Source of the DNA: Bordetella hinzii LMG 13501
GTDB lineage: Bacteria; Pseudomonadota; Gammaproteobacteria; Burkholderiales; Burkholderiaceae_B
Assembly (NCBI RefSeq): GCF_001548475.1
Contig: NZ_LRUJ01000009.1
Location: 1 to 64,000 of the forward strand
Direction: 5' to 3'
Length of the DNA stretch: 64,000 nucleotides
Shown here: piece after piece, positions 13,769-55,458 of the stretch
How positions within the stretch are numbered: position 1 is the first letter of the stretch
Layout: the number at the start of each line of letters is the position of its first letter
Made by a program: the position numbers and the translations under genes
Notes under the pieces: generated by a model
What the model saw: only the letters and a program-made list of their open reading frames with translations
Told to the model about the DNA's origin: nothing
The model's database searches: none

Positions 13769-13802
13769 CGCGCGGCGACGCGCAGCACTGAAAGGACCAG
13801 GA

Positions 13803-14477: not shown

Positions 14478-14489
14478 GCCGCGGAGCCG

Positions 14490-14508: not shown

Positions 14509-14546
14509 TCCGATAACAATACATCCGGCCGACCCGGCCGTTCGCC

Positions 14547-15956: not shown

Positions 15957-15960
15957 GCCG

Positions 15961-35316: not shown

Positions 35317-35328
35317 TGTCGTCGCTGG

Positions 35329-35356
35329 CCCTTCGTCCCGGCACCGGGACGAAGGG
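35329..35356 (+). terminator. Perfect hairpin, terminator-like, after porin
   Basis: CCCTTCGTCCCGG and CCGGGACGAAGGG are perfect 13-bp complements separated by two bases; folded, this gives a 12-bp stem with a 4-base loop. A short TTTT tract follows after seven intervening bases (35364-35367). It lies in the convergent gap before the ferredoxin stop at 35375. It is a probable terminator for the porin, though the T-run is displaced. Confidence 0.6.
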
Positions 35357-35374
35357 CTGGGTGTTTTGGGGGCT

Positions 35375-35683
35375 TCAGTCGGGAAGCTCCACCCAGACCT
35401 GGCCTTCGGCCATCTTGACCGGATAGACGGGCAGCGGCTCGCGCGCCGGTCCATCGAGCACCTCGCCGGTCTTCACATCGAAGACCGCCTGGTGCAAGGG
35501 ACATTCGATACAGCCGTCTTCAAGGTAGCCGTCCGTCATGTAGGCATGCTGGTGCGTACAGATGTTGCCGGTGGCGAAGACAGCGTCGCCCACTTTGCAC
35601 AAGGCGATGTCGCGTCCGGCGATTTCGACGCCCAGCATGGTTTTGCCGTTCAGGTCGGCCGATGCGGCGGGATGCCACGTCAT
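35375..35683 (-). CDS. Rieske [2Fe-2S] ferredoxin
   Basis: A 102-residue Rieske ferredoxin with ligands C42-T-H44 and C61-P-L-H64, of the size and motif spacing of the small electron carriers of three-component ring-hydroxylating oxygenases. It should pass electrons from the FAD reductase at 44958-46181 to the Rieske oxygenase at 37898-39040. It is not in their operon but 43 bases downstream of the divergent LysR gene on the minus strand, so it is probably co-transcribed with the regulator. A GGAG site precedes the ATG. Confidence 0.92.
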   Translation of the reverse strand: MTWHPAASADLNGKTMLGVEIAGRDIALCKVGDAVFATGNICTHQHAYMTDGYLEDGCIECPLHQAVFDVKTGEVLDGPAREPLPVYPVKMAEGQVWVELPD

Positions 35684-35726
35684 GTTGCGGTTCTCCAGTG
35701 TGTGAGTAGAAAGAAAACGTGGGAAA

Positions 35727-36716
35727 TCAGCGGGGTTCGGACAGTTCGACGGCGTAGATGCGCGCCTCGATGGGCTTGGCCGCCGTCACTTCCTGCATCA
35801 CCCGGACGAAAGCCTGTTCGGCGCGCGAGAGCTGCGCCTTGGGGTTGCTGACCAGATAGACGTCGATGGGCGTCGGGTGCTCGAAGGGCGGCAGCCGCCA
35901 CAGCAGGCCATCGCGCACATCGCGCGCGGCCACATGCAGGGGCAGGGCGCCCACGCCCAGGCCGGCCAGCACCATGCGGCGGACTTCCTCCAGGTGGTCC
36001 GATATGCCCCGGAAAGGCATGGCCAGCTTGGCCTGGCGGTACATGCCGTTGATGGTCTGCAGCACTTCCGAGGCGGCCACCACCTTGAACGACACCGCGT
36101 TGTGGCCGGCCAGGTCTTCGAGCTTGAGGCCGCGCTTGCCGAACAGCGGGTGGCGCGGGCCGCAGAACAGGCCGAAGTACTCCTGGTAGAGATGGAAATA
36201 CTCCAGCTCCGCGACTTTGCTGCAGGCCAGCGACACGCCAAAGTTGATGGACCGGTTGAGCAGCGATTCGATCAGCGCCGAACTGGGCTGCAGGCAGATG
36301 TCCAGCGCGACCTGCGGGTAGCGCTGGTGAAAGGTGGCCAGGGTGTCGTCGATGATGTCGCTGACGATGTGGCTGGCCATGTGCAGCTGCAGCGTGCCGG
36401 CGATGGCCGAAGGATCTTCGCCGATAAGGCCGGGGATGTTGCGGATGGTGTGGAAGATCTCGCGGCATTCGCGATGCAGCAGCGCCCCTGTCTCCGAGAG
36501 GCTGAAGCGGGTGGAGCTGCGCTGCACCAGCTGCGTGCCCATGGTCTCTTCCAGGCGCTTGAGCGCGGCGCTGACCGCTGGCTGGGTGCGCCCCAGGATG
36601 TCGGCCGCCGCCGAGATGCCCTGCGCTTCGGCGATCACCAGAAAAGTGCGTAACAGGTTCCAGTCCAGGCTGCGGGCCAGCGAGCTTTCGGTCAGGAGTT
36701 TGGAGACAGGCTGCAT
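35727..36716 (-). CDS. LysR-family transcriptional regulator
   Basis: A 329-residue LysR regulator: LLRTFLVIAEAQGISAAADI and LGRTQPAVSAALKRLEETMG form the HTH, followed by a ligand-binding domain. I chose the ATG at 36716; an upstream ATG at 36767 would add 17 atypical residues encoded by the AT-rich operator region and lacks a ribosome site. It is divergent from the amidohydrolase/Rieske oxygenase/ABC transporter operon, which it probably activates in response to that pathway's substrate, and it precedes the Rieske ferredoxin in its own transcript. Confidence 0.9.
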   Translation of the reverse strand: MQPVSKLLTESSLARSLDWNLLRTFLVIAEAQGISAAADILGRTQPAVSAALKRLEETMGTQLVQRSSTRFSLSETGALLHRECREIFHTIRNIPGLIGEDPSAIAGTLQLHMASHIVSDIIDDTLATFHQRYPQVALDICLQPSSALIESLLNRSINFGVSLACSKVAELEYFHLYQEYFGLFCGPRHPLFGKRGLKLEDLAGHNAVSFKVVAASEVLQTINGMYRQAKLAMPFRGISDHLEEVRRMVLAGLGVGALPLHVAARDVRDGLLWRLPPFEHPTPIDVYLVSNPKAQLSRAEQAFVRVMQEVTAAKPIEARIYAVELSEPR

Positions 36717-36731
36717 CGGAGTTCTAGGGAT

Positions 36732-36772
36732 ATAAATGGTATTTATGATTGGATAATCAAAATCCATTTGAT
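36732..36772. promoter_or_regulatory. Two AT-rich operator-like dyads, lysR / catabolic operon
   Basis: ATAAAT-GGT-ATTTAT (36732-36746, containing a T-N11-A core) and ATCAAA-N5-TTTGAT (36756-36772) lie side by side in the 115-base divergent gap. Their centres are 25 bp apart, about 2.4 helical turns. The block is strikingly AT-rich compared with both flanking genes. It is the likely recognition and activation site pair for the adjacent LysR protein. Confidence 0.6.
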
Positions 36773-36831
36773 TTATATGACACGCTACCGGAACATGCGC
36801 ATCGGGTCAACGATTCAATGGAAGCGTCGCG

Positions 36832-37875
36832 ATGCATGTGGTTTACGCCGATCAACAGCAGCAACATCAGCCCGAGCATTTCATGGTGGCCGGCCGCGTG
36901 CGGCCCAATCCGGATGTCCCGGCGCGCCTGGCCGGGCTGCGCGAAGGCGTGGCGGCCATGGGTTACGCCATCCATGCGCCCGCGGACTTCGGCCTGCAAT
37001 ATCTGAGCCGCGTGCATACGGCGCGCTATCTGGATTTTCTTGAGCACGCGCATGCCTTGTGGTCCCGGCTGCCCAATGCCGGCCCGGAAGTCGTCCCCAA
37101 CGCCCATCCCCGCCGGCCCGATGCGCCCTATCCGCGCGGCATCGTCGGGCGGGCGGGCTTCCATATGTATGACCTGGCCTGCGCCATCGGCCCGCACACC
37201 TGGCAGGCCATGCGCTGGGGCGCCAACAGCGCAGCCAGCGCCGCGCGCGGCGTGGCCCAGGGCCGGATGGACGCGGCCTATGCGCTGTGCCGCTCGCCGG
37301 GCCACCACGCGGGCCCCGAATACGCGGGCGGCTTCTGCTATCTGAACGGAACGGCGGTGGCCGCCGAAGTGCTGCGCGAGCGCTTCGACCGCGTGGCCAT
37401 CATCGACGTCGATGTGCATCACGGCAATGGCACCCAGGACATCTTCTATGCGCGCGGCGATGTGCTGACCATTTCGCTGCATGGCGACACCGCCGAGTTC
37501 TACCCCTTCTATTGGGGCAGCTCCGAGGAGCGCGGCCAGGGCGAAGGCGAGGGCGCCAATCTCAATATTCCGCTGGCGCGCGGCACGGCCGACGCGGCCT
37601 ACCTGGCGCAGCTGTCGGCGGCGCTGGAGCGCGCCTCGCAGTGGGGCGCCCAGGCCCTGGTGGTGGCCCTGGGCTTTGACGGCTATGAGCGCGATCCGCT
37701 GGCCTGGCTGTCCATCAGCACCGACGGCTTCGGGCGCATCGCCCGGGCGCTGGCCGGCCTGGGCCTGCCCACCGTGCTGGTGCAGGAGGGCGGCTATATG
37801 TGCGAAGACCTCGCCGCCAATCTGCGCAGTTTCATGACGAATTTTGAAGCCGCCCACCGTGTGGAGCGGGGTTGA
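36832..37875 (+). CDS. Histone-deacetylase-superfamily amidohydrolase (acetylpolyamine amidohydrolase-like)
   Basis: A 347-residue arginase/deacetylase-fold zinc hydrolase of the class II HDAC / APAH type. The active-site His pair is H158-H159 (RSPGHHAG). The Zn site is D194 and H196 in IIDVDVHHGNGTQ plus D283 in LGFDGYERDPL, and the transition-state Tyr is Y322 in EGGYM. Length and order fit bacterial acetylpolyamine amidohydrolases, which remove acyl groups from amines. It is the first gene of an operon with a Rieske oxygenase and a peptide-type importer, so it probably deacylates an imported amide before or after ring oxidation; the actual substrate is unknown. Confidence 0.9.
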   Translation: MHVVYADQQQQHQPEHFMVAGRVRPNPDVPARLAGLREGVAAMGYAIHAPADFGLQYLSRVHTARYLDFLEHAHALWSRLPNAGPEVVPNAHPRRPDAPYPRGIVGRAGFHMYDLACAIGPHTWQAMRWGANSAASAARGVAQGRMDAAYALCRSPGHHAGPEYAGGFCYLNGTAVAAEVLRERFDRVAIIDVDVHHGNGTQDIFYARGDVLTISLHGDTAEFYPFYWGSSEERGQGEGEGANLNIPLARGTADAAYLAQLSAALERASQWGAQALVVALGFDGYERDPLAWLSISTDGFGRIARALAGLGLPTVLVQEGGYMCEDLAANLRSFMTNFEAAHRVERG

Positions 37876-37897
37876 CATCAATCAAGGGGTGAACACC

Positions 37898-39040
37898 ATG
37901 GCAGTCAAGGAAGTAGCGGTACGCATGTTCGACAAGACCTTCCGCGAGGTGACCCAGGCGTCGCATTCGCCGGGCTTTATCTACCACGACCCGGACGTGC
38001 TGGCGCGCGAGGAAGCGGAGATCTTCCGCCGCGACTGGCTCTGCCTGGCGCGCGAGGACGAGCTGGCCAAGCCGGGCGACTATATGGCCTTGCGCGTGCT
38101 GCGCGACCCGGTGCTGCTGTGCCGCGATGAGGCCGGCACCGTGCGCGCCTATGCCAATATGTGCTTGCACCGGGGCGTGGAGATCGCCACCGGCAAGGGC
38201 AATGCCGAGGAGTTCACCTGTCCTTACCATGGCTGGCTTTATGGCCTGGACGGCGCGCTCAAGGGCGCTTCGTATATGCGCGACGCCGAGGACTTCGACC
38301 GCAAGAATTGCCGGCTGCCCGAGCTGAGCGTGGGCCTGTGGGGCGGTTTCATCTTCGTGTCGCTGGCCAAGGAGCCCGTGCCGTTTGCCGATTTCATCCG
38401 CGACTTCGACGAGAAGTTCGGCTATATCCAGACCGGCCAGCTGAAGGTGGGCCTGCGCGTGGATGCCGAGCTCAAGTGCAACTGGAAGCTGATGGTGGAG
38501 AACTTCATCGACTTCTACCACGTGGGCGTGCTGCACAAAGACTCCATCGGCCGCTTCATGAAAACGGTGGACCTGCCCTATGACCTGCGCGCCAACGGGC
38601 AGGTCTTCATCGATGAATACGACGCCGGCACGCTGTCCAAGTCGGGCGACTTGACGTCGCGGCGCATCCCGGCGCTGGAGGGCAAGTCCGACCGTTATTC
38701 GGCCACCGGCCTGTTGAGCCCCAACCTCAATTTCTTCGTGCGTCCCGACTACATCTCGGTCTACACCAGCTGGCCGACGGGACCGGAGACCATGCGCTTG
38801 TCGGGCATGGTGCTATGGATGCCCGAGACGGTGGACGGCCCGCAGCGCGACCGCGTGGTGGGCGAGTTCAAGGAAATGCTGGACAAGGTGCTGGCCGAAG
38901 ACTTCTCCATGGTCGAGTCGCTGCAGAACGTCACGCGGGCGGCCTCCTTCGTGCCGGGCCGGATGTCGCGCCTGGAGAAAGGGGTGCAGCACTATATCAA
39001 GCACAATCTGGAGCGTCTGTTCGGCGCCGCCGGGGCTTGA
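37898..39040 (+). CDS. Rieske non-heme iron oxygenase, alpha subunit
   Basis: A 380-residue ring-hydroxylating oxygenase large subunit. The Rieske cluster ligands are C89-L-H91 and C108-P-Y-H111; the mononuclear iron motif is E201-N-x-x-D205-x-x-H208-x4-H213, and a C-terminal catalytic domain follows. No beta subunit is adjacent, as in alpha-only oxygenases of the phthalate/carbazole/demethylase type. I chose the ATG at 37898 behind AAGGGGTG. A matching ferredoxin (35375-35683) and reductase (44958-46181) are encoded nearby, completing a three-component system. The target ring or N-/O-methyl group cannot be read from sequence. Confidence 0.95.
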   Translation: MAVKEVAVRMFDKTFREVTQASHSPGFIYHDPDVLAREEAEIFRRDWLCLAREDELAKPGDYMALRVLRDPVLLCRDEAGTVRAYANMCLHRGVEIATGKGNAEEFTCPYHGWLYGLDGALKGASYMRDAEDFDRKNCRLPELSVGLWGGFIFVSLAKEPVPFADFIRDFDEKFGYIQTGQLKVGLRVDAELKCNWKLMVENFIDFYHVGVLHKDSIGRFMKTVDLPYDLRANGQVFIDEYDAGTLSKSGDLTSRRIPALEGKSDRYSATGLLSPNLNFFVRPDYISVYTSWPTGPETMRLSGMVLWMPETVDGPQRDRVVGEFKEMLDKVLAEDFSMVESLQNVTRAASFVPGRMSRLEKGVQHYIKHNLERLFGAAGA

Positions 39041-39042
39041 CG

Positions 39043-39888
39043 ATGGGCGGGCCCATCCAGTATTTCGCCGATGCCGGCGGCATCAATGTGCGCGTGCGCC
39101 AATGGGGCCATGCCGGTCCCGCCGTGCTGTGCGTGCACGGCCTCGGCTCGCATGCCGAGATCTGGGACGAGCTGGGCGCCCGCCTGGCCGCCCAGGGCCG
39201 TGTCTGCCTGGCCATCGACCTGCCGGGCCATGGCCTGTCCTATAAAGGCCCGGATTTCGACTATCGCGCCGCCGGCCATGCCGCCATGCTGGCCCGCCTG
39301 CTCGACAGCCTGGGACAGCAGGCGGTGGACGTCGTGGGTTCTTCGCTGGGCGGCCTGCATGCCGCGGCTTTCGCCACCACGCATCCGGCCCGCGCGCGCA
39401 GCCTGGCGCTGATCGGCGCCGTTGGCCTGGCGCCGCTGGCGCCGCAGCGGCGCGAGTGGACCGCGGGCTATCTGGCGCGGATGGACCGGGACGCGGTGGC
39501 CGAACGGCTGCGCGCGGGCGTGTACGACCCGGCGCGGGTCAGCGAGGCCTATATCGAGGAAACCTGGCGCATGAACAATTCGGCCGGCGCGGCCGAGTCC
39601 TTCGCGGCCATCGGCCGCTATTACCTGGGATCCATCAACGACGACATCCAGACGGACAGGCTGGCCGCCCTGGGCGAACGCCTGCCGCTGATGCTGATCT
39701 GGGGCGAGGACGACGTCACGGTCTCCTACGCCGATGCCCGCCAGGCCGCGGCCCGCCTGCCGCGCGCCCGCTTCGAAGCCTTGCCGCGCACGCGGCACAT
39801 CCCCCATGTCGAGCGGCCCGATGAGGTGGCCCGCTTGCTGTCGCAGCATCTTTCCGCCGTGTCAACGACCGTTCTGGAGTCCGCATGA
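39043..39888 (+). CDS. Alpha/beta hydrolase
   Basis: A 281-residue alpha/beta-hydrolase-fold enzyme. HGLGSHAEIWDEL gives the oxyanion region, AIDLPGHGLS is typical, the nucleophile elbow is VGSSLGG (S101), an acid residue lies in WGEDDVTVSY, and the catalytic His is in RHIPHVERPDE. The style matches C-C or ester hydrolases of aromatic meta-cleavage pathways. It is two bases after the oxygenase gene and overlaps the next (ATGA), so it is translationally coupled within the catabolic operon. It probably hydrolyses an ester, amide or ring-cleavage product; it does not look like NicD. Confidence 0.9.
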   Translation: MGGPIQYFADAGGINVRVRQWGHAGPAVLCVHGLGSHAEIWDELGARLAAQGRVCLAIDLPGHGLSYKGPDFDYRAAGHAAMLARLLDSLGQQAVDVVGSSLGGLHAAAFATTHPARARSLALIGAVGLAPLAPQRREWTAGYLARMDRDAVAERLRAGVYDPARVSEAYIEETWRMNNSAGAAESFAAIGRYYLGSINDDIQTDRLAALGERLPLMLIWGEDDVTVSYADARQAAARLPRARFEALPRTRHIPHVERPDEVARLLSQHLSAVSTTVLESA

Positions 39889-41453
39889 AGCAAGCCGATC
39901 TGTCTTCTTCGCTTACCCGCCGCGATCTCATCAAGGGAGCGGCCACCCTGGGCCTGGGCGCGGCCTGTGGCCTGGTCCTGCCTTTCGGCCAGGCCCGGGC
40001 GGCCGAGACGCCCGTCAAGGGCGGCCGCCTGAAACTGGGCCTGGCCGGCGGCCAGACCACCAATACCCTGGATCCGGCGCGCGGCGGCTTCGGCTCGCCG
40101 GTCGAGCGCACCATCAACTACACCCTGTACAACACCCTGATCGAGATCACGGAAGACGGCCAGGCCATTCCCGAGATCGCCACGCGCTGGGACGTGGGCC
40201 CGGGCGCGCGGGAATGGATCTTCCATATCCGCGAAGGCGTGACTTTCCACAATGGCAAGCCGCTGACGGCCGACGACGTCGTGTTCTCCCTGCGTCGACA
40301 CACCGGACCGGACACCAAGTCGGGCGCCGCCGGCCTGCTCAAGGAAATCACCACGATCGAGAAGGCCGGGCCGATGCAGGTCAAGGTGGTGCACGCCACC
40401 GGCAATGCCGACCTGCACTATCTGCTGTCGGACTACCACCTGAGCATCGTGCCGGACGGCCAGGCCACCATAGATGGCGTGGGCACCGGCCCCTACGTCC
40501 TGCAGCAGTACGAGCCGGGCGTGCGCTTTTTGGCCAAGCGCAATCCCAACTACTGGAAGGAAGGCCGCGCGCACGTCGACGAGATCGTGATCAATGTGGT
40601 CAACGACGACGCCGCGCGCCTGGCGGCGCTGCAGTCGGGCGAGGTGCAGGTCGTCAACCGCCTGGATCCCAAGACGGTCAAGCTGCTTGAGCGCTTGCCC
40701 AGCCTGCGGGTCATCAATGCCAGCGGCAATGCCTTCTATGCCATCAATATGCGGTCGGACCGGGGGCCTTTCGCCAATCCGGACCTGCGCCTGGCCATGA
40801 AGTACGCCATCAACCGCAAGCAGATGCTGGACCGTCTGCTCATGGGCTATGGCTCGCTGGGCAATGACCACGCGGTAGGCCGCTACATGCCCTTCTTCGA
40901 TGCCACGCTGGCGCAGCGCGAGCAGGACCTGGACCGCGCGCGCTTTCACTATAAGAAGTCCGGCCATAGCGGGGCGATCGACCTGCGCACCTCGACGGCG
41001 GCTTTCTCCAGCGCCATCGACATGGCGGTGCTGCTGAAGATGGATGCCGAGAAAGCGGGCATGAACATCAATGTGGTGCGCGAGCCGCAGGACGGCTACT
41101 GGGAGACCGTGTGGCGCTCCAAGGATTTCATGATCACCTATTGGGCCGGCCGCGCCGTGCCGGACCAGATCTTCACCACCGCCTATTTTTCCAAGGCCGC
41201 CTGGAACGACACGCACTGGGCCAACGCCCGCTTCGATGCGCTGCTGCTGGCCGCGCGCACGGAACTGGACCAGGCCAAGCGGGCGCAGATCTACGCGGAG
41301 ATGCAGGCGCTGATGCGCGATGACGGCGGGCCGGTCATTCCGTTGTTCAACAACTTCCTGGACGGGGCCAGCGCCAAGGTGCGCGGCAACCTGGGCGCGC
41401 CCAATATGGAACTGGCCGGCTGCCGCATCGCCGAGCGCTGCTGGCTGGCCTGA
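39885..41453 (+). CDS. Peptide/nickel-type ABC transporter substrate-binding protein (Tat-exported)
   Basis: A 522-residue DppA/OppA-family (SBP_bac_5) periplasmic binding protein. The N terminus carries a twin-arginine signal, TRRDLIK, followed by a hydrophobic stretch ending ARAAE, so it is likely exported folded through Tat. Family blocks include WIFHIREGVTFHNGKPLTAD, YNTLIEITEDGQAIPE and LRLAMKYAINRKQML. It would capture a peptide-like or oligo-amide ligand and pass it to the two permeases encoded next. A strong 10-bp hairpin follows it, suggesting higher expression than the permeases. Confidence 0.93.
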   Translation: MKQADLSSSLTRRDLIKGAATLGLGAACGLVLPFGQARAAETPVKGGRLKLGLAGGQTTNTLDPARGGFGSPVERTINYTLYNTLIEITEDGQAIPEIATRWDVGPGAREWIFHIREGVTFHNGKPLTADDVVFSLRRHTGPDTKSGAAGLLKEITTIEKAGPMQVKVVHATGNADLHYLLSDYHLSIVPDGQATIDGVGTGPYVLQQYEPGVRFLAKRNPNYWKEGRAHVDEIVINVVNDDAARLAALQSGEVQVVNRLDPKTVKLLERLPSLRVINASGNAFYAINMRSDRGPFANPDLRLAMKYAINRKQMLDRLLMGYGSLGNDHAVGRYMPFFDATLAQREQDLDRARFHYKKSGHSGAIDLRTSTAAFSSAIDMAVLLKMDAEKAGMNINVVREPQDGYWETVWRSKDFMITYWAGRAVPDQIFTTAYFSKAAWNDTHWANARFDALLLAARTELDQAKRAQIYAEMQALMRDDGGPVIPLFNNFLDGASAKVRGNLGAPNMELAGCRIAERCWLA

Positions 41454-41456
41454 AGG

Positions 41457-41480
41457 CATGGGCGCGCCCACGCGCCCATG
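41457..41480 (+). other. Intercistronic stem-loop after the binding-protein gene
   Basis: CATGGGCGCG-CCCA-CGCGCCCATG is a perfect 10-bp stem with a 4-base loop, extendable by one G-T and one G-C pair, in the 53-base gap between the binding-protein gene and the first permease. There is no T-run. Such hairpins after ABC binding-protein genes commonly stabilise the upstream message or give partial termination. Confidence 0.65.
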
Positions 41481-41506
41481 TCCGGAATAACAAGGGGGAA
41501 ATCCGC

Positions 41507-42460
41507 ATGACCTTATTGCGATTGATCGGGCGCCGGCTGGTCTGGGCCCTGATCACTTTATGGCTGGTATCGGTGTTCATCTTCATGGCTGTCGAACTCA
41601 TGCCCGGCGACGCGGCCGAGGCGCTGCTGGGCAAGGACGCCACGCCGCAGGCCGTGGAGAACCTGCGCCGGGCCTTGCGCCTGGACGAGCCCGCCACCAC
41701 CCGCTATCTGGCGTGGCTGGGCGACATGGCCGCCGGCAATGCCGGCCAGTCGCTGGTGACGGGCATGCCCATCGCGCCGGTGCTGGGCGAGCGGCTGGGC
41801 AATACCCTTTTTCTGGCCGTCAGCGCGGCGCTGGTCGCCGTGCCGCTGGCGCTGGCCCTGGGCCTGCTGTCGGCGCTCAAGCAGGGCACGGCGGCCGACC
41901 GCGTCATCTCGGTGGTGTCGCTGGCCTCGATCTCCTTTCCGGAGTTTTTCATGGGCTATGTGCTGCTGCTGGTGTTCGGCCTGCAGCTGGGCTGGCTGCC
42001 GGTGCTGTCCACCGTCAATCCGGATATGGCGCTGGGCGAGCGGGTATTGCGCATCGTGCTGCCGGCGCTGACCCTGGTCTGCATGGTCATGGCCTACATG
42101 ATGCGCATGACCCGCGCGGCCGTCATCAACGTGCTGTCCCATCCCTATATCGAGATGGCCCGGCTCAAGGGCTGCAGCCCCGGCCAGATCGTGCTGCGCC
42201 ACGCCTTCATCAACGCGGTCGGACCGGTCATCAATGTGGTGGCCATCAGCCTGGCCTATCTGGTGGTGGGGGTGGTGGTGGTCGAAGTGATCTTCACCTA
42301 TCCGGGCATGGGCCAATGGATGGTGGACGCCGTGTCCAAACGCGATATCCAGGTCGTGCAGGTCTGCGGCCTGGTCTTCGGCGCCGCCTATATCGGCCTG
42401 AACCTGGTGGCCGATGTCACGGCCCTGGCTTTCAACCCCAAACTGAGGCACCCGCGATGA
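41507..42460 (+). CDS. ABC transporter permease (DppB/OppB type)
   Basis: A 317-residue integral membrane permease with six predicted helices, a conserved N-terminal cap (LLRLIGRRLVWALITLWLVS, VELMPGDAAEALLG) and the cytoplasmic EAA-type loop YIEMARLKGCSPGQIVLRHA that docks on the ATPase. The C-terminal part VVVVEVIFTYPGMGQWMVDA is the DppB signature region. It pairs with the following DppC-type permease, whose start overlaps its stop (ATGA). It forms the inner-membrane channel for the ligand bound by the upstream Tat-exported protein. A GGGGGAAA site precedes the ATG. Confidence 0.94.
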   Translation: MTLLRLIGRRLVWALITLWLVSVFIFMAVELMPGDAAEALLGKDATPQAVENLRRALRLDEPATTRYLAWLGDMAAGNAGQSLVTGMPIAPVLGERLGNTLFLAVSAALVAVPLALALGLLSALKQGTAADRVISVVSLASISFPEFFMGYVLLLVFGLQLGWLPVLSTVNPDMALGERVLRIVLPALTLVCMVMAYMMRMTRAAVINVLSHPYIEMARLKGCSPGQIVLRHAFINAVGPVINVVAISLAYLVVGVVVVEVIFTYPGMGQWMVDAVSKRDIQVVQVCGLVFGAAYIGLNLVADVTALAFNPKLRHPR

Positions 42461-43284
42461 CGGCGATGATGAATGCCCTGGCCGCCTTCCGGCGTTCGGG
42501 CGCGGTGACGCGCATTGCCTTGCTGGTGCTGGCGCTGGTGGTGCTGGCCGTGATCGCCGGGCCCTGGCTCTGGCCGGTGGGCGCCGACGACATGGTGGGC
42601 GAGCCCTGGAGCCCGATGAGCTGGGCGCATCCCTTCGGCACCGACCAGTTGGGGCGCGACATGCTGGCGCGCGTGATCGAGGGTGGGCGCAACAGCCTGG
42701 CCCTGGCCGCTGTGATCGCCGCCGGCGCCTTCGCGCTGGGCACGGGGCTGGGCCTGGTGGCCGCCTTTTGCTCGGGCGCCGTCGATGCGGTGCTCTCGCG
42801 CGTGGTGGACTTGCTGATGTCGTTTCCGCCGCTGATCTTCGCCTTGCTGGTGATCTCGCTGCTGGGCAATTCCATTCCGGTCCTGATCGCCGTGCTGGTG
42901 CTGTTCGAGTGCCTGCGCATCTTCCGGCTCACCCGCTCGCTGGCCATGGATATCGCCGTGCAGGACTATGTAGTGGCCGCCCGGCTGCGCGGCGAAGGCC
43001 TGGGCTGGCTGCTGGGCCGCGAACTGCTGCCCAACGCCATGGGGCCGCTGGCTGCCGAGCTGGCCATCCGCTTCATGTTCAGCCTGCTGTTCATCAGTTC
43101 GCTCAGTTTCCTGGGCCTGGGCGTGCCGCCGCCGGCCGCCGACTGGGGCGGGATGGTGCGCGATAACGCGCCGGCCATCGGCTTCGGCCTGACCGCGCCG
43201 CTGTTTCCGGCGGGCATGATCGCCGTCGTGGCGGTCTGTGTGAATTTGCTGGCGGACGCCCTGCTGCGCCGCAAGGATGCTTGA
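42457..43284 (+). CDS. ABC transporter permease (DppC/OppC type)
   Basis: A 275-residue permease with an N-terminal helix, the DppC block HPFGTDQLGRDMLARVIEGG, the cytoplasmic EAA-type loop YVVAARLRGEGLGWLLGREL, and FLGLGVPPPAADWGGMV near the end. The start ATG at 42457 overlaps the DppB-type stop; the same frame stays open upstream through that gene, but this is a shadow. It is the second half of the heterodimeric channel and is followed two bases later by the fused ATPase gene. Confidence 0.94.
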   Translation: MTAMMNALAAFRRSGAVTRIALLVLALVVLAVIAGPWLWPVGADDMVGEPWSPMSWAHPFGTDQLGRDMLARVIEGGRNSLALAAVIAAGAFALGTGLGLVAAFCSGAVDAVLSRVVDLLMSFPPLIFALLVISLLGNSIPVLIAVLVLFECLRIFRLTRSLAMDIAVQDYVVAARLRGEGLGWLLGRELLPNAMGPLAAELAIRFMFSLLFISSLSFLGLGVPPPAADWGGMVRDNAPAIGFGLTAPLFPAGMIAVVAVCVNLLADALLRRKDA

Positions 43285-43285
43285 G

Positions 43286-44944
43286 ATGACCTCGCCATTG
43301 ATCGATATCCGGGATCTGCGCCTGGCCACCTCCGCCACGCCCTCGCGCGAACTGCTCAAGGGCCTGAGCCTGACGCTGCGCGCCGGAGAGGTGCTGGGCA
43401 TCATCGGCGAATCGGGCGCGGGCAAGTCCACCCTGGGCCTGGCGGCCCTGGGACACTTGCGCGCCGGCGTGCGTCACGCGGGCGGCCAGGTGCTCTACCG
43501 CGGCCAGGACCTGCTGGCCATGCCGCTGGCCCAGCGTAATCGCCTGCTGGGCCGCAAGCTGACCTATGTCGCCCAGTCGGCATCGGCCGCCTTCAATCCC
43601 GCCTATACCCTGGGCCGGCAGATGACCGAAACCCTGGTGCGCGACGGCATGCCCCGCGAGGCGGCGCGCCAGCGCATGGTGGCCTTGCTGCGCAAGCTGG
43701 ACCTGCCCGACCCGGAGCACTTCGGCGAACGCTATCCGCACCAGGTCTCGGGCGGACAGCTGCAGCGCGCCATGACCGTGATGGCCATGGTGTCCGAGCC
43801 GGAGATGGTGGTCTTCGACGAGCCCACCACCGCGCTGGACGTGACCACGCAGCTGGAGGTGCTGGCGGCCATCAAGAAGGCCATCCAGGGCCAGCAGAGC
43901 GCGGCGCTCTATATCAGCCACGACCTGGCCGTGGTGTCGCAGATCTGCGACCGCATCATGGTCTTGCGCCACGGCGAGCTGGTGGAGGCGGGGCCGGCGC
44001 GCCAGGTGGTCGATGACCCGGCGCGCGGCTACACCCGCGAACTGCTGGCGGTCAGCCGCCACCGCGGCGCGCCCGAGCCCGTGAGCCAGGAGGACGCCAT
44101 CCTGTCGGTCGACGGGTTGTCGCTCAGCTACGGGCCGGTGCAAGTGCTGCACGATGTCTCGCTGCGGCTGCGGCGCGGCACCACGCTGGCCGTGGTGGGC
44201 GAGTCCGGCAGCGGCAAGTCCACCCTGGCCAAGACCATCGTAGGCCTGGTGCCCGGGCCGCGGCAGACGCTGCGCTTTGATGGCCAGGTGCTGCCGGCGG
44301 CCTTGCGCGAGCGCTCGCGGGACACCCTGCGGCGTATCCAGCTGGTGTTCCAGACGCCCGACACGGCGCTGAACCCCAGGCTGACCATCGGCGAATCGCT
44401 GGGCCGGCCGGTGGCTTTCTACCATGGCCTGCCGGCCCCGGCCGTGGCGCGCCGCGTCGATGAGCTGCTGGCCGAGATCGAGCTGCCGGCCGAGGTGGCC
44501 CGCCGCTATCCGGGCGAGTTGTCCGGCGGACAGAAGCAGCGCGTCTGCATCGCGCGCGCGCTGGCCGCGCAGCCGGATGTCATCATCTGCGACGAGGTCA
44601 CTTCGGCCCTGGACCCTCTGGTGGCGCAAGGCATCATTGCCCTGCTGGCCCGCCTGCAACGCCAGCGCGGGGTATCGTACATATTCATCACCCACGACCT
44701 GGGCACCGTGCAGAGCATCGCGCACGACATCGCGGTCATGCGTGGCGGAAAGGTGGTCGACAGCGGCAGGCGAGACGACGTGCTGCCGCCGCGCCATCCC
44801 TATACCAGGCTGTTGTTCGGCGCCGAACCCCGCACCGAGGCAGGCTGGCTTGAACAGGCGCTGCGCGGGCGTTCGCGCGGCGAAGCCGGAGTTTCCGGCG
44901 AGTTGCAAAAGGCGGTGCCCGACGCACCCATGAGTATCGGCTGA
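43286..44944 (+). CDS. Fused DppD-DppF-type ABC transporter ATPase
   Basis: A 552-residue protein with two complete ABC domains in one chain. The first has Walker A GESGAGKST, signature VSGGQLQRA and Walker B VVFDEPTTALD; the second has Walker A GESGSGKST, signature LSGGQKQRV and Walker B VIICDEVTSALD. Fusion removes the need for separate DppD and DppF genes, and this unit completes a five-component importer with three neighbours. I chose the ATG at 43286 with AAGGA at good spacing; an ATG at 43277 is the alternative and would overlap the DppC-type stop. Confidence 0.95.
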   Translation: MTSPLIDIRDLRLATSATPSRELLKGLSLTLRAGEVLGIIGESGAGKSTLGLAALGHLRAGVRHAGGQVLYRGQDLLAMPLAQRNRLLGRKLTYVAQSASAAFNPAYTLGRQMTETLVRDGMPREAARQRMVALLRKLDLPDPEHFGERYPHQVSGGQLQRAMTVMAMVSEPEMVVFDEPTTALDVTTQLEVLAAIKKAIQGQQSAALYISHDLAVVSQICDRIMVLRHGELVEAGPARQVVDDPARGYTRELLAVSRHRGAPEPVSQEDAILSVDGLSLSYGPVQVLHDVSLRLRRGTTLAVVGESGSGKSTLAKTIVGLVPGPRQTLRFDGQVLPAALRERSRDTLRRIQLVFQTPDTALNPRLTIGESLGRPVAFYHGLPAPAVARRVDELLAEIELPAEVARRYPGELSGGQKQRVCIARALAAQPDVIICDEVTSALDPLVAQGIIALLARLQRQRGVSYIFITHDLGTVQSIAHDIAVMRGGKVVDSGRRDDVLPPRHPYTRLLFGAEPRTEAGWLEQALRGRSRGEAGVSGELQKAVPDAPMSIG

Positions 44945-44957
44945 CAAGGAAGCATAA

Positions 44958-46181
44958 ATGACGGAAACCATCGTGATCGCGGGCGCGGGACATGCCGCGG
45001 GCAAGGCGGTGCGGGTCCTGCGCGAGGAGGGCCATACGGGGCGCATCGTGCTGGTGGGCGAGGAAACCCATCTGCCCTACGAGCGTCCGCCGCTGTCCAA
45101 GGAGTATCTGAACGGCGCGCGCACGCTGGAGCAGTGCGCGATCAATCCGGCCGCCGCCTATGACGGCGTCGAGCTCTTCCTGGGCCAGCGCGCGCTGGCG
45201 CTGGACCCCGAGGGCCATGTGCTGTCCACCACGGCCGGCATGCTGCGCTACGACAAGCTGCTCATCGCCACCGGCGCGCGGGCGCGCGCCTTCCCCGGGC
45301 TGCCCGCCGCGCATCCGCGCGTGCATGTGCTGCGCGGCGCCGACGATGCGCTGCGGCTGCGCCAGGCGCTGGTGCCGGGCCGCCATATCGTGCTGATCGG
45401 CGGCGGCTTCATCGGCCTGGAGGTCGCCGCGACCGCGCGCGGCCTGGGCTGCGAAGTGACGGTGCTGGAATCCGCCGACGTGCCGCTGGCCCGCGTGACC
45501 GGCCGGCAAGTGGGCCGCTATGTCGAGTCGGTGCATCGCGCCCATGGCGTGAAGCTGCAGACCGGCAGGGTGGTCACGGGCGTGCGGACGCATGACGACG
45601 GCGTCGAGGTCAGCTGCCAGACCGGCGAGACCTGGCGCGCCGACGCCCTGGTGGTGGGGATAGGCGTGGTGCCCAACGTGGAGTTGGCGCGCGAGGCCGG
45701 CATCGAGTGCGAGGACGGCATCGTGGTCGATGCCCACGGCCGCAGCAGCGTGCCGGATGTCTATGCCACCGGCGATGTGACATCGCACCCCAACCGCCAT
45801 TACGGCCGCCGCATCCGGCTCGAAACCTGGGAGAACGCCGAGAAACAGACGGTGGCCGTGTGCCGCAGCATGCTGGGCCGCGAGACTGCTTATGACGAGA
45901 TCCCCTGGATGTGGACCGACCAGTTCGGTATGAACCTCCAGGTCGTGGGCCTGCCGGGTCCGGTGGACCAGGCCGTGGTGCGCGGCGATCCGGCCAGCGG
46001 GCGCTTCATCAGCCTGTCGCTGCATCAAGGCTGCCTGACCTTCGCGGTGCTGGCCAATATGGGACGCGAGCGCCGGGCGCTGACCACGCTCATCGCCAAC
46101 CGCACGCCGGTATCGGTGGCCGACCTGGCGAATGACGCGATCAACCTGCGCGATCTGGCCCGCCAGACCGCGGCGGCCTGA
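44958..46181 (+). CDS. FAD-dependent ferredoxin reductase of the oxygenase system
   Basis: A 407-residue pyridine-nucleotide-disulfide-type oxidoreductase resembling the reductases of class IIB/III oxygenases and rhodocoxin/putidaredoxin reductases. The FAD motif IAGAGHAAGKAVRVLRE (GxGxxG-type) lies near residues 7-23, with YERPPLSKEYLNG near 38-50. The NAD(P)H site is VLIGGGFIGLEVAATARGLG near 150, and the second FAD block is VYATGDVTSH. It should move electrons from NADH to the Rieske ferredoxin and then to the oxygenase encoded upstream. It begins 13 bases after the ABC ATPase gene. Confidence 0.93.
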   Translation: MTETIVIAGAGHAAGKAVRVLREEGHTGRIVLVGEETHLPYERPPLSKEYLNGARTLEQCAINPAAAYDGVELFLGQRALALDPEGHVLSTTAGMLRYDKLLIATGARARAFPGLPAAHPRVHVLRGADDALRLRQALVPGRHIVLIGGGFIGLEVAATARGLGCEVTVLESADVPLARVTGRQVGRYVESVHRAHGVKLQTGRVVTGVRTHDDGVEVSCQTGETWRADALVVGIGVVPNVELAREAGIECEDGIVVDAHGRSSVPDVYATGDVTSHPNRHYGRRIRLETWENAEKQTVAVCRSMLGRETAYDEIPWMWTDQFGMNLQVVGLPGPVDQAVVRGDPASGRFISLSLHQGCLTFAVLANMGRERRALTTLIANRTPVSVADLANDAINLRDLARQTAAA

Positions 46182-46195
46182 GCGAGGAGCGACCT

Positions 46196-46810
46196 GTGTT
46201 CTATCACTGCGACCGCAACGACCACGGCCTGCCTTACAACCCGTTCAAGGCCTGCGTCATTCCGCGCCCCATCGGCTGGGTGTCCACCCGCTCGCGCGCG
46301 GGCGTGCCCAACCTGAGCCCCTTCAGTTTTTTCTCGGCCGTCAATGAGCGCCCGCCCATGGTGGCGTTCTGCGCCAACGGCCGCCACGTGGCCGGCGGCG
46401 AAAAAGACTCCGTCCTGAACGCCCGCGAGACCGGCGAGTTCGTCGTCAATCTCGCGACCTATGCCTTGCGCGATGCCATCAACGCCTCGTCCGCCTCGGT
46501 GGAGCGCGATGTGGACGAATTCGGCCTGGCCGGCGTGACCGCCGTGCCCGCCCGGCTGGTCAAGGCGCCCTGCGTCAAGGAATCCCCCGTCCACCTGGAG
46601 TGCGCGGTGCACGACATCCTGGAGCTGCCCAGCAGCGAGGAGGGCTGGATCAGCCGCATGGTGATCGGCCGCGTGCTGGGCATCCATGTCGATGACGCCA
46701 TGATCGAAGACGGGATGGTCAAGGCCGAGCGGCTGCAAGCCATCTCGCGGCTGGGCTATATGGATTACGCCGTCACGCGCGAAGTCTTTCAACTGAACCG
46801 GCCCGCCTGA
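46196..46810 (+). CDS. Flavin reductase / FMN-binding split-barrel protein
   Basis: A 204-residue flavoredoxin-like protein of the flavin-reductase domain family (DIM6/NTAB). Typical segments are FKACVIPRPIGWVSTRS, NLSPFSFFSAVNERPPMVAF and SVLNARETGEFVVNLATYA. It uses a GTG start at 46196 behind a clear GAGGAG site. It could supply reduced flavin to a monooxygenase, but none is encoded here, so it may instead bind flavin in a side step or support the ring-cleavage dioxygenase. It lies within the catabolic operon between the ferredoxin reductase and the NicX-like gene. Confidence 0.85.
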   Translation: MFYHCDRNDHGLPYNPFKACVIPRPIGWVSTRSRAGVPNLSPFSFFSAVNERPPMVAFCANGRHVAGGEKDSVLNARETGEFVVNLATYALRDAINASSASVERDVDEFGLAGVTAVPARLVKAPCVKESPVHLECAVHDILELPSSEEGWISRMVIGRVLGIHVDDAMIEDGMVKAERLQAISRLGYMDYAVTREVFQLNRPA

Positions 46811-46830
46811 GGGCCGACAAGGGGGTTTCG

Positions 46831-47877
46831 ATGGGCCTGTCCGCCATCAAAGATCATCGTCTGTCCGCCGCCGCCCGGGTGCTGGTGAGCGGGCATTTCG
46901 CCGTCCAGGCGGGAGAGTGCGTGCTGATATCGGCCGATACGCGCACCGACCCCGAACTGCTCGATGCCGTGTTCGGGGCGGTGTGCGAGGCGGGGGCCAC
47001 GCCCCTGCTGGCGACCTTGCCCAAGCTGCCTTTCCAGGGCGCGTTGGCCGACCCCTATCTGCCGCGGGCTTTCGCGGCCGCCGCCGCCCAGGCCGACGTG
47101 TGGCTGGATTTCAGCTTTCCCTATATGGCCGGCTCGACGCCGCATGACGAGGCCATCAAGGCCGGACGGGTGCGCTACGGCCTGCTGGCCCTGCCCGATG
47201 GCGCCAGCCTGGCGCGCGTCTACGGCGGCGTGGATTTCGGCGCGCTGATGGATTTCCAGGTGGCGCTGGCCGAGTACCTGGACTCGCGCGCCGGCGCCGA
47301 GGCGCATTTCACCTGCCCGCTGGGCAGCGACGCCCGGTTCATCCTGCAGCCCGTCAAGCTCAAGCGCCACCGCGTGGCCAATGTGCCCGGCATCCATACG
47401 GTGCCGGGCGCGCAGAGCCTCTATCCGCAGCTCGACAGCGTGCGCGGGCGCATCGTGCTGCAGGCCCTGTTCGACGAGGTCTACCGGCCGCTGCGTCGTC
47501 CCATCACGCTGGAGGTCGACGGCCGCATCCGGGGTTTCTCGGGCGCGGGCGCGGAGGACGCGCCGCGCCTGGAGCGGGCCCTGCGCCGCGCGGGCAATGG
47601 CGAGTACGGCTATTTCGTGCATTTCACGCTCGGCTTTCATCCGGCGGCCTGTTTCACCGGCACCAACTTCATCGAGGACATCCGCCTGCCGGGGACCAAC
47701 GCCATCGGCATGGGGCTGCCCTGGTGGGAACCGGGCGGCGGCGAAAACCATCCCGACGGTGTCGTGTTCGACCAGACCCTCTCGGTCGACGCAGAGGTGC
47801 TGGTCAAGGACGGGCGCTTCCAGGGGCCGGCCGCGCTGCGCGGGCTGCATGAGCGGCTGGTGCCGCGCTTTTACTGA
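46831..47877 (+). CDS. NicX-like (2,5-dihydroxypyridine dioxygenase / M29-like) metalloprotein
   Basis: A 348-residue protein of the aminopeptidase-T-like family that includes NicX, the extradiol-type 2,5-dihydroxypyridine 5,6-dioxygenase of nicotinate degradation. Residues matching the NicX iron ligands appear conserved: H270 in LGFHPAA, and H307/D309 in ENHPDG. Length matches NicX (about 350). In this operon a Rieske oxygenase could hydroxylate an N-heterocycle that this enzyme then opens. True NicX function is not proven: M29-like peptidases share the fold. Its stop overlaps that of the convergent LysR gene by seven bases. Confidence 0.78.
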   Translation: MGLSAIKDHRLSAAARVLVSGHFAVQAGECVLISADTRTDPELLDAVFGAVCEAGATPLLATLPKLPFQGALADPYLPRAFAAAAAQADVWLDFSFPYMAGSTPHDEAIKAGRVRYGLLALPDGASLARVYGGVDFGALMDFQVALAEYLDSRAGAEAHFTCPLGSDARFILQPVKLKRHRVANVPGIHTVPGAQSLYPQLDSVRGRIVLQALFDEVYRPLRRPITLEVDGRIRGFSGAGAEDAPRLERALRRAGNGEYGYFVHFTLGFHPAACFTGTNFIEDIRLPGTNAIGMGLPWWEPGGGENHPDGVVFDQTLSVDAEVLVKDGRFQGPAALRGLHERLVPRFY

Positions 47878-48752
47878 GCGGCGCGTATGCCGGCGATCAG
47901 GGCCTGCACGTAGCGCGGCGCGGGTTGGCGCAAGACGATGCTGCGCTCGCGCCGCGCCCAGGCCTCGTCCAGGTCCAGCAGCGTCAGGCCCGCCTGGTGG
48001 CGGCGCGCCGCCGAGGCGGGCAGGATGCCGATGCCCACGCCGGCCTCGACCATGCGGCACAGGGCGTCGAATCCGCTGACCTGCACACGCCACTGGGGCG
48101 CCCGCCCCGCCTCGGCGGCTTGCTGTTCCAGGAAATGCAGCAAGCTGCTGCCGGCGTGCATGCCGACTTGCGGATAGTCCAGCGTCGCGGCAAAGCGCAC
48201 CCCGCTTTGCGCGGCCAGCGCATGCCCGTGGGCCACCGCCACCACCAGGCGGTCGGTCGAGAAGGGGATGACCCGCAGGCCGCGAACGGCGACCGGTCCG
48301 GCGACCACGCCCAGGTCGGCCGCGCCGTCGCGCACGCCCTGGGCGATATCCGGGTTGAGCTTTTCTTCCAGCGTGACGCTGATGGCCGGATGGCCGCGCA
48401 GGAAGTCGCGCAGCACGGCCGGCATGAATTCGCTGACGGCCGTGGTGTTGGCGTAGATGCGCACATGGCCGGTGATCTCCTGGCGGTGGCGGTCCATGGC
48501 GCTTTGCAGCAGCGCGGCATGCCGCATCATGCGCCGGGCGTGGCGCAGCAGGGTCAGGCCGGCCGGCGCCAGGGTCACGCCGGTGGGCTCGCGGTACAGC
48601 AGGCGCAGGCCCAGCCGGGCCTCCAGCGCCTTGATGCGCAGGCTGGCGGCGGCCAGCGACAGCGGCATGGCGCGGGCGGCCCGGGTGAGGCTTTTCTCCT
48701 CGGCCACCAGGATGAACAGGCGCAGGTCGGCCAGGTCAAAGCGGGGGGACAT
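47871..48752 (-). CDS. LysR-family transcriptional regulator
   Basis: A 293-residue LysR regulator starting MSPRFDLADLRLFILVAEEK, with HTH SLTRAARAMPLSLAAASLRI followed by KALEARLGLR. I chose the ATG at 48752; an open extension to 48830 overlaps the hydro-lyase gene. It is the last gene of a minus-strand unit after the Bug receptor and hydro-lyase subunits, ten bases below the beta subunit. This end-of-operon position is unusual for LysR and suggests feedback control of the unit or of a distant target. Confidence 0.9.
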   Translation of the reverse strand: MSPRFDLADLRLFILVAEEKSLTRAARAMPLSLAAASLRIKALEARLGLRLLYREPTGVTLAPAGLTLLRHARRMMRHAALLQSAMDRHRQEITGHVRIYANTTAVSEFMPAVLRDFLRGHPAISVTLEEKLNPDIAQGVRDGAADLGVVAGPVAVRGLRVIPFSTDRLVVAVAHGHALAAQSGVRFAATLDYPQVGMHAGSSLLHFLEQQAAEAGRAPQWRVQVSGFDALCRMVEAGVGIGILPASAARRHQAGLTLLDLDEAWARRERSIVLRQPAPRYVQALIAGIRAAQ

Positions 48753-48762
48753 GACGACGGGA

Positions 48763-49326
48763 TCAGCCGGCCAGCCGGGCACGGTATTTGGCGACCTCCT
48801 CATCGTAGAGGTCGCGGCCATGCGCGTCATTGGTGACCAGCAGCGGGAAACCCTCGATCTCCAGGCGCTGGATGGCTTCGGTCTTCAAGTCTTCGTAGGC
48901 CACGACGGTGGCGCGCTTGATGCAGGCGAACAGGGTGGCCGAGATGCCGCCGATGGCCGAGAAGCAGACCGCCACATTGCGCCGGCAATTCTCGCGCAGG
49001 GCCGGGCCGCGGTTGCCCTTGCCGATGGCGGCCTTCACGCCGTGGTCAAAGAGCACGGTGGCATAGGGGTCCATGCGATAGGCCGACGTGGGGGCGACCA
49101 CGCCGATGGCGTGTCCGGGCATGGTGGGGCCGGGCCCGCCGTAGAACACCGTCTGCCCGCGCAGGTCCACCGGCAGCGGCAGGCCCTGGCTGAGCAAATC
49201 GACCAGGCGCTTGTGGGCGGCGTCGCGCGCCATGTAGATCGTGCCGCTGAGCAGCACTTCGTCGCCGACATGCAATTGGCGGATGACCTCGTCAGTCAGC
49301 GGCGTGGAAAGCGTATGAATGGCCAT
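48763..49326 (-). CDS. Class I hydro-lyase beta subunit (fumarase/L-tartrate dehydratase type)
   Basis: A 187-residue small subunit of an Fe-S hydro-lyase. It has VGDEVLLSGTIYMARDAAHK near the start, the conserved YGGPGPTMPGHAIGVVAPTS, TSAYRMDPY near 82-90, and IGKGNRG near residue 108. It pairs with the alpha subunit encoded upstream with 10 bases between them. Together they would interconvert a hydroxy-dicarboxylate and an unsaturated dicarboxylate (malate/fumarate, tartrate/oxaloacetate or a methyl analogue). A frame extension upstream falls in the alpha gene and is a shadow. It resembles TtdB by size. Confidence 0.9.
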   Translation of the reverse strand: MAIHTLSTPLTDEVIRQLHVGDEVLLSGTIYMARDAAHKRLVDLLSQGLPLPVDLRGQTVFYGGPGPTMPGHAIGVVAPTSAYRMDPYATVLFDHGVKAAIGKGNRGPALRENCRRNVAVCFSAIGGISATLFACIKRATVVAYEDLKTEAIQRLEIEGFPLLVTNDAHGRDLYDEEVAKYRARLAG

Positions 49327-49336
49327 GCGGAAGTCC

Positions 49337-50179
49337 TCAGAGGATGGCGGTCTTGCGGCGCGAGGCGTGGCATTGGATGTTGACGGCGACCGGCAAGGCG
49401 GTGATGTGGCAGGCATAGGTTTCCACCGCCACCCACAGCGCGGTGCTGGAGCCGCCGTAGCCTTGCGGGCCGATGCCGCTGCGGTTGATGGCCTCCAGCA
49501 GCTCGGTCTCCAGGGCGGCGATATGGGGCGCCTCATGGTGCTGGCCGATATCGCGCAGGATGGCCTTCTTGGCGATCTCGGTGACCTTGTCGAAACTGCC
49601 GCCCAGGCCCACGCCCACGGTCAGCGGCGGACACGCCGCGCCGCCGGCCGCTTCGATGGCATTGAGCACGAAGCGCTTGACGCCTTCGACGCCCTCGCCG
49701 GGCAGCAGGAACTTCATCGTGCTCCAGTTTTCGCTGCCGCCGCCCTTGGGCAGCACGGTGATGCGTATCTGGTCGCCGGGCACGATGTCGGTATGGATGA
49801 CGGCGGGCGTGTTGTCATTGGTATTGACCCGCAGCAGCGGGTCGCCCACCACGGACTTGCGCAGATAGCCTTCGGCATAGCCTTTGCGCACGCCGGCGTG
49901 CACGGCCTGCTGGTAGTCGCCGCCGACGATGCGCACGTCCTGGCCCACATCGACATAGACGATGGCCAGGCCCGTGTCGTGGCAGTACGAGACATCGTTC
50001 TCGCGCGCGATGCGGTCATTGTCGATGAGCTTGACCAGCACGGACTTGCCCAGCGGCGAGATTTCCGTCTGGCGGGCGCGTTCGAAGGCGGCCAGTACAT
50101 CGTCGGGCAGCTTGCGGCAGGCCTCGATGCAGAGGGTGGCGATACAGTCGGTGATCTGGTCGGTATGTATTTGGCGCAT
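49337..50179 (-). CDS. Class I hydro-lyase alpha subunit, [4Fe-4S] (fumarase/L-tartrate dehydratase type)
   Basis: A 280-residue large subunit. Three Cys ligands of the [4Fe-4S] cluster are visible: C66 (SYCHDTG), C183 (AACPPLTVGVGLGG) and C270 (NIQCHASR). LPKGGGSENWSTMKFLLPGE is also characteristic. I chose the ATG at 50179; upstream residues to 50248 lie in the intergenic and Bug region. The two-subunit arrangement and the link to a Bug receptor and a UTRA GntR regulator favour catabolism of an imported hydroxy-dicarboxylate such as tartrate over housekeeping fumarase, but this is inference. Confidence 0.92.
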   Translation of the reverse strand: MRQIHTDQITDCIATLCIEACRKLPDDVLAAFERARQTEISPLGKSVLVKLIDNDRIARENDVSYCHDTGLAIVYVDVGQDVRIVGGDYQQAVHAGVRKGYAEGYLRKSVVGDPLLRVNTNDNTPAVIHTDIVPGDQIRITVLPKGGGSENWSTMKFLLPGEGVEGVKRFVLNAIEAAGGAACPPLTVGVGLGGSFDKVTEIAKKAILRDIGQHHEAPHIAALETELLEAINRSGIGPQGYGGSSTALWVAVETYACHITALPVAVNIQCHASRRKTAIL

Positions 50180-50205
50180 GGCGTATTCAAAGAGGGAAGG
50201 GGGCC

Positions 50206-53839: not shown

Positions 53840-53848
53840 GGAGCGGGG

Positions 53849-55323: not shown

Positions 55324-55458
55324 GTGCGGGCAGGGCGCCGGGGAATATGAATCTTTCGTGAACCCTCAAGGGCTCGGGGCCGCGCGGGCGTCTAGGTCAG
55401 CAGTACGCGACAGAACCCGCAGGCCGGGTCATGTCCCCATTCTTGCTGAAGGAACACC

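Follow-up and report, generated by a model that had tools for sequence, protein, structure and literature searches.

The first 64,000 nucleotides of contig NZ_LRUJ01000009.1 of Bordetella hinzii LMG 13501 (assembly GCF_001548475.1), hereafter called the window, contain ten co-directional genes (36832-47877, + strand) opposite a divergent lysR-ferredoxin gene pair, as established by open reading frame (orf) listing and family scans. This cluster probably serves the inducible catabolism of a small N-heteroaromatic compound, most likely of the pyridine type. The reading builds on the established gene set, its conservation, a predicted protein fold, active-site residues and a common promoter element. 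In the proposed pathway, the LysR-type regulator would sense the compound, with both transcripts driven from one intergenic element, and an importer of the Opp/Dpp family would carry the compound inward. A ferredoxin reductase and a Rieske ferredoxin would pass electrons to a Rieske oxygenase that would hydroxylate the compound (or remove an N- or O-linked alkyl group), an Fe(II) dioxygenase resembling NicX would cleave the ring beside the nitrogen to leave an N-formyl or N-acyl amide, and an HDAC-fold enzyme and an alpha/beta hydrolase would hydrolyse amide (or C-C) bonds, the former acting either first or after ring cleavage. The gene set is self-contained and also occurs in distantly related soil bacteria. 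This combination of enzymes for a N-containing aromatic ring looks unusual, and it offers a testable N-heteroaromatic catabolic module whose key enzyme is named by no Pfam, NCBIfam or PHROG model.

The key enzyme is the product of the last gene (46831-47877), which a preliminary description of this DNA had called a NicX-like ring-cleavage protein. The fold and the iron triad bear that label out, whereas sequence searches do not: the protein has no family match at 1e-3 in the three model collections, and it has no match to PDB sequences up to E 1 or, searched as a profile, up to E 10. The best PDB fold for its AlphaFold2 model (pLDDT 88.1) is NicX (Foldseek E 2.4e-20; Z 29.1, 320 residues aligned, root-mean-square deviation 3.4), and M29 aminopeptidases come next (Z 20.5). 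The iron ligands of NicX, the 2,5-dihydroxypyridine 5,6-dioxygenase of Pseudomonas putida KT2440, are His265, Ser302, His318 and Asp320 according to the accessible part of PMC7910607. The present protein resembles NicX in fold, in length and in its two His and one Asp ligands. In an alignment that includes a NicX fragment spanning residues 144-336, the triad His265/His318/Asp320 corresponds to H264/H307/D309, invariant in all 19 related loci. By modelled fold and triad, the protein probably works like NicX. In the nic pathway the hydroxylase is a flavin enzyme of the NicC type, encoded in a gene set that also includes an isochorismatase-type NicF; neither family appeared in the Pfam scan of ten proteins of the cluster, a search that did not extend to the remainder of the genome. 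LigB-type ring-cleavage genes were considered as an alternative and rejected, all three matches in the genome lying on other contigs. The B. hinzii genome also encodes a second, distant NicX-superfamily protein (G000:C4:60441-61421, or L027:946-1926; 2.8e-11 to NicX) that has Glu at the His265 position and lies beside aminotransferase-like and enoyl-CoA-hydratase-like orfs, as read from the sequence.

Nineteen loci for the NicX-like protein were found in the genome collection. The nearest named relative is Bordetella pseudohinzii (NicX-like protein 96%), and next after Bordetella are two Azospirillum (71-72%), both of which possess all twelve genes in a rearranged order. Within the genus Bordetella, two of 15 genomes are positive, the window's own and one other. 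The NicX-like protein was matched at 1e-10 in two of 399 genomes of a Burkholderiales sample (its own genome and one partial match), at 1e-30 in one of 398 genomes of a Pseudomonadota sample (its own, with scoring confined to each genome's five best first-look candidates), and at 1e-15 in nine of 385 genomes of an alphaproteobacterial sample centred on a Marivibrio genome, where the centre and Ferrovibrio were already known. A fragmentary Burkholderiales match (L005) was left out of the interpretation. The simplest reading of this distribution would be horizontal transfer between Alphaproteobacteria and Bordetella.

Because the set recurs in another bacterial class, its grouping is more than chance, and on these comparisons it is a real conserved module. 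Fifteen of the 19 loci have a Rieske gene, counted in flanks at 36% identity or more, close to the NicX-like gene (14 in the fetched flank and one, L007, just outside it), and the HDAC gene adjoins the Rieske gene in each of the eight HDAC-bearing clusters (the window, B. pseudohinzii, two Azospirillum, Acidisoma, two Roseomonas and Ferrovibrio). Eleven further loci with more distant NicX-like proteins (43-56%) include eight with a Rieske gene, but are not independent because they come from eight genomes. Pairwise distances among the NicX-like proteins correlate with those among the Rieske proteins (r 0.66, 24 loci), a value reached in none of 5000 permutations. A different branch is represented by Bordetella sp. 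BOR01 (L018; NicX-like protein 58%, Rieske protein 37%), the flank of which has no HDAC gene and has deformylase-like, BetI-type-family and hydantoinase A/B genes. In L007 and L008, the NicX-like gene is preceded upstream by two orfs that by eye resemble ethanolamine ammonia-lyase subunits (families F31 and F32).

The Rieske oxygenase has the motif C-x-H-x17-C-x2-H at residues 89-111 and the iron-site motif D205-x2-H208-x4-H213, of which these three residues were examined. With a separate Rieske ferredoxin (35375-35683) and a flavin adenine dinucleotide (FAD)-dependent reductase (44958-46181), the system has three components, as had been proposed. The top PDB chains for the oxygenase are phthalate 3,4-dioxygenase and, second, carnitine monooxygenase. 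Among NCBIfam models it scores highest with glycine betaine monooxygenase (4.7e-41), its 140.6 bits falling far short of the cut-off of 670, and the ferredoxin's best model, AndAb, is also below cut-off. The Rieske motif and, as far as those three residues go, the iron site are common to carnitine and glycine betaine monooxygenases, phthalate 3,4-dioxygenase and AndA, and the ferredoxin and reductase are of the AndA/Hca type; the system differs from these enzymes in that all its NCBIfam scores are below cut-off and the operon has no beta-subunit gene. Riboflavin/lumichrome catabolism was rejected as a counterpart, the Rieske step there having alpha and beta subunits alongside a catechol dioxygenase in the accessible part of PMC12746152. 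A flavin-reductase-like gene is present in six of the 19 loci, which belong to B. pseudohinzii, Azospirillum and the Reyranella type.

The genes near the relatives' NicX-like genes bear on the class of substrate. In L086, a Rieske gene is directly followed by a true NicX homologue (1e-93). In L084 and L090, a FAD_binding_3 monooxygenase adjoins the NicX-like gene and apparently takes the place of the hydroxylase. The family of molybdenum-hydroxylase large subunits occurs in five of the eleven further loci (one member scanned), and L089 has, besides an amidase, a nicotinamidase-like protein that scores below the cut-off of its model. Because a molybdenum hydroxylase, a flavin monooxygenase, a nicotinamidase-like protein and a true NicX homologue occur near relatives, a N-heteroaromatic substrate is likely. 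Of the acylated, N-containing aromatic molecule envisaged in the preliminary description, the N-containing part is strengthened by these neighbours and the acylated part is not established; its full mineralisation finds no clear downstream enzymes in the operon. The NicX homologue of L086 (G1051:C65) is followed by a gene of the aconitase/isopropylmalate dehydratase family, and the same contig has a NicX-like gene and a second Rieske-type gene. Families for F420-cofactor synthesis (CofE, CofC and FbiC-like; scanned in L091) are near the NicX-like gene in L085 and L091.

The HDAC-fold enzyme is nearest to acetylpolyamine amidohydrolases, with whole-length homology to PDB entries 3men, 9gkz and 3q9b and the same catalytic residues. 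Positions 195, 197, 284, 158, 159 and 323 of 3q9b, which are taken to be the zinc ligands, His dyad and Tyr, are kept in all eight operon HDAC proteins, whereas Glu106 is replaced by Val and Glu117 by Ala in all eight. Since these two residues are presumably the ones that recognise polyamines, polyamines are an unlikely substrate by this comparison, which suggests a non-polyamine physiological setting for a bacterial HDAC-fold enzyme. The HDAC step could equally open the pathway, with an acylated precursor as substrate, or follow ring cleavage, with a N-formyl or N-acyl product as substrate. The later role is suggested by relatives that lack HDAC but have genes resembling those for deformylase, dimethylformamidase or amidase: the deformylase family (F6) is near the NicX-like gene in six of the 19 loci and the dimethylformamidase-like family (F17) in four, one member of each having been scanned. 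It is weakened by the presence of both HDAC and deformylase-like genes in L010, L011 and L012, which speaks against a simple swap of one for the other, and by the alpha/beta hydrolase that performs such a step in a known pyridine pathway. In that pathway, the KpiA/KpiC/KpiB route for 4-hydroxypyridine in Arthrobacter IN13, an alpha/beta hydrolase hydrolyses the N-formyl product (PMC7356986). The accessible part of that source shares with the B. hinzii operon the logic of hydroxylase, pyridine ring cleavage and alpha/beta hydrolase, but describes a flavin hydroxylase and an amidohydrolase-family dioxygenase, with no Rieske enzyme, HDAC or Opp importer seen there. The two peptide deformylases of B. 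hinzii itself are encoded on other contigs.

All eight HDAC-bearing clusters carry an exact copy of the element ATARATCAAATNNA at the same position of the lysR/HDAC promoter region, the pattern having been derived from those same eight promoters. It is also exact in L012, upstream of a solute-binding-protein gene, has one-mismatch copies in L013 and L017, and is otherwise absent from the Reyranella-type and other relatives' loci searched. In the window it occurs once with one mismatch allowed; a longer form of the element has one exact site in the 5.0-Mb B. hinzii genome and three one-mismatch sites elsewhere in it, and the reversed control has none. Its T-N11-A spacing is that of LysR sites. 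Because the listed start of lysR (36767) overlaps the conserved element (36763-36776), the true start is probably near 36716, judging by position. The operator-like sequence could be a handle for finding the inducer and, through it, the substrate. Another dyad, ATAAATGGTATTTAT at 36732, is altered in B. pseudohinzii and was dropped, and a consensus scan of the lysR/HDAC gap found no sigma-70-like promoter.

Several observations weigh against a pyridine-type catabolic module, in which every reaction, the order of steps and the substrate class are inferred. Similarity of the NicX-like protein to NicX is not detectable at the sequence level, Gly replaces the fourth ligand Ser302 in all 19 loci, and Ile is aligned with Arg293, a residue essential to NicX, the next position being an invariant Arg; because Ser302 is replaced and sequence similarity goes undetected, strict membership of the NicX family fails, and the gene also differs from nicX in lying beside a Rieske gene. 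HDAC is found in seven of the 19 relatives and in none of the fetched flanks of the other 12. No Rieske gene was seen near the NicX-like gene in L013, L014, L022, L023, L084, L085 and L090. L013 has a 61% Rieske match on another contig, and the contigs of L014 and L023 are only 6.1 and 7.6 kb long. The genome of L022 has no Rieske match at 1e-40; its missing flank gene is not evidence because the upstream flank, one long stop-free stretch, is probably masked. The best NCBIfam names of the molybdenum and flavin enzymes near relatives are below cut-off and not pyridine-specific, so that they do not fix the substrates. The preliminary description had also recognised an importer, which is present as a PF00496 binding protein, permeases and a PF00005 ATPase; this four-gene importer is of the Opp/Dpp type, but importer families differ among relatives (partly read from sequence by eye), and because they differ, the imported solute is probably small. 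A more specific version of the module may tentatively be proposed, in which proteins with the NicX fold and triad and a changed fourth ligand would form a distinct ring-cleavage family that is a standing partner of Rieske oxygenases, HDAC having been recruited in the HDAC-bearing branch to deacylate a ring-opened N-formyl or N-acyl product, possibly derived from a N-methylpyridinium betaine.

Three other explanations must be set against the pyridine-type module. An acylated aromatic amine or N-heterocycle might be imported and deacylated first by HDAC, the Rieske and NicX-like enzymes then degrading the core; this is possible, though doubtful. The operon begins with the HDAC gene, which stands beside the Rieske gene wherever the clusters have it, and a later amide hydrolysis could be left to the deformylase-like gene paired with HDAC in L010-L012 or to the operon's own alpha/beta hydrolase, yet the flanks of just seven of 19 relatives have HDAC, other amide hydrolases occur there, and no other gene implies an acyl group. 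The substrate might instead be a N-methylpyridinium betaine such as homarine or trigonelline, attacked by a Rieske enzyme resembling betaine monooxygenases, cleaved as a N-methyl dihydroxypyridine and relieved of its N-formyl group by amide hydrolases. Homarine catabolism reportedly yields N-methylglutamate. The glycine betaine and carnitine monooxygenase matches of the Rieske oxygenase agree with a betaine, as do a TetR family (F2; one scanned member BetI-type) near the NicX-like gene in ten of the 19 loci and the dimethylformamidase-like family in four. A betaine is nevertheless unlikely: phthalate 3,4-dioxygenase outranks carnitine monooxygenase, the operon in the window has no BetI-type gene, and the homarine report was not found in the open-access literature searched.

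The least probable of the explanations considered is an operon for opine or peptide utilisation, with the NicX-like protein as a M29-type aminopeptidase and the Rieske oxygenase oxidising a side chain. The family-5 binding protein is nearest to the opine-binding protein AgaA, the M29 aminopeptidases are the next-best fold, and there is a weak Pfam M29 match at 0.048 (five of 19 relatives match M29, at best 0.026). NicX fits the model clearly better by both Z and E, the position of NicX His265 is His in all 19 loci whereas the distant paralogue in the same genome has Glu, and relatives use other importer types.

The open-access literature searched describes no gene cluster of this make-up and yielded no named pathway built on these genes, as the preliminary description had supposed; closed-access literature was outside the scope. 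The same literature describes no such cluster among the homarine papers listed, has nothing on a Rieske enzyme with N-methyl pyridinium compounds, does not mention an acetylpolyamine amidohydrolase jointly with a Rieske enzyme in a catabolic gene cluster, and contains only unrelated matter on dipicolinate. The accessible part of PMC5159870 has nothing on a Rieske route.

The genes lie where the preliminary description had placed them and belong to the families it had named (orf listing, Pfam, NCBIfam; Table 1). From HDAC through the NicX-like gene, the gaps are 22, 2, -4, 53, -4, -8, 13, 14 and 20 bp, and because this spacing is tight, a single transcript is likely for the ten-gene run. The ferredoxin gene is downstream of lysR on the strand opposite to the operon, with 43 bp between them, and the arrangement suggests the operon-like unit with a divergent lysR arm that had been described. 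For permeases 1 and 2 the assignment comes from their position and their homology to permeases at other loci, not from a family scan of their own. Better starts are ATG 37898 for the Rieske oxygenase and ATG 39043 for the alpha/beta hydrolase. Terminator-like sites in the region number seven, no excess over shuffled sequences (5.6, standard deviation 2.2).

Table 1. Features of the catabolic cluster, with coordinates in the window.
Feature	Coordinates	Strand	Basis or remark
Stem-loop past ferredoxin gene, possible terminator	35325..35360	listed on + strand	16 pairs; consensus match only
Rieske-type [2Fe-2S] ferredoxin	35375..35683	-	PF00355 1.3e-18; C-x-H...C-x2-H motif
LysR-type regulator	35727..36767	-	PF03466 and PF00126; true start probably near 36716
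Conserved operator-like element ATAAATCAAATGGA (ATARATCAAATNNA)	36763..36776	-	T-N11-A spacing; exact in 8/8 HDAC-bearing clusters
HDAC-fold amidohydrolase, acetylpolyamine-amidohydrolase-like	36832..37875	+	PF00850 2.2e-68; PDB 3men 9e-95
Rieske oxygenase catalytic (alpha) subunit	37898..39040	+	PF00848 and PF00355; Rieske and iron motifs
Alpha/beta hydrolase	39043..39888	+	PF00561 3.1e-34; GSSLG nucleophile motif; nearest PDB HsaD 3.2e-20
ATP-binding cassette (ABC) importer binding protein, family 5	39885..41453	+	PF00496 1.6e-75; nearest PDB AgaA 1.8e-32
ABC permease 1	41507..42460	+	orf; counterparts at other loci
ABC permease 2	42457..43284	+	orf, 4-bp overlap; counterparts at other loci
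Fused double ABC ATPase	43277..44944	+	PF00005 in two stretches; two Walker A motifs
FAD ferredoxin reductase	44958..46181	+	PF07992 and PF14759; NCBIfam HcaD, AndAa below cut-off
Flavin-reductase-like protein	46196..46810	+	PF01613 1.1e-20; PDB 3bpk 4.3e-31, 4z85 1.4e-14
NicX-like putative Fe(II) ring-cleavage dioxygenase	46831..47877	+	predicted fold and iron triad

Genes that converge on the operon (47871-51168) encode a LysR, two fumarase/tartrate-dehydratase-like orfs and a tripartite-tricarboxylate-type receptor orf, names that were read from the sequence, and the same group is present in B. pseudohinzii. For this neighbouring LysR (47871-48830), the sole close match (87%) is in the second cluster-bearing Bordetella genome, all others being at or below 48%. 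Farther off in the window, a gene run at 256-17103 resembles by eye a cellulose-synthesis operon, and the stretch 53186-64000 contains a FecR/FecI-like pair followed by an open frame of more than 2800 residues that has a signal-like start and runs off the window; by eye its product looks like a large protein, either secreted or on the cell surface.

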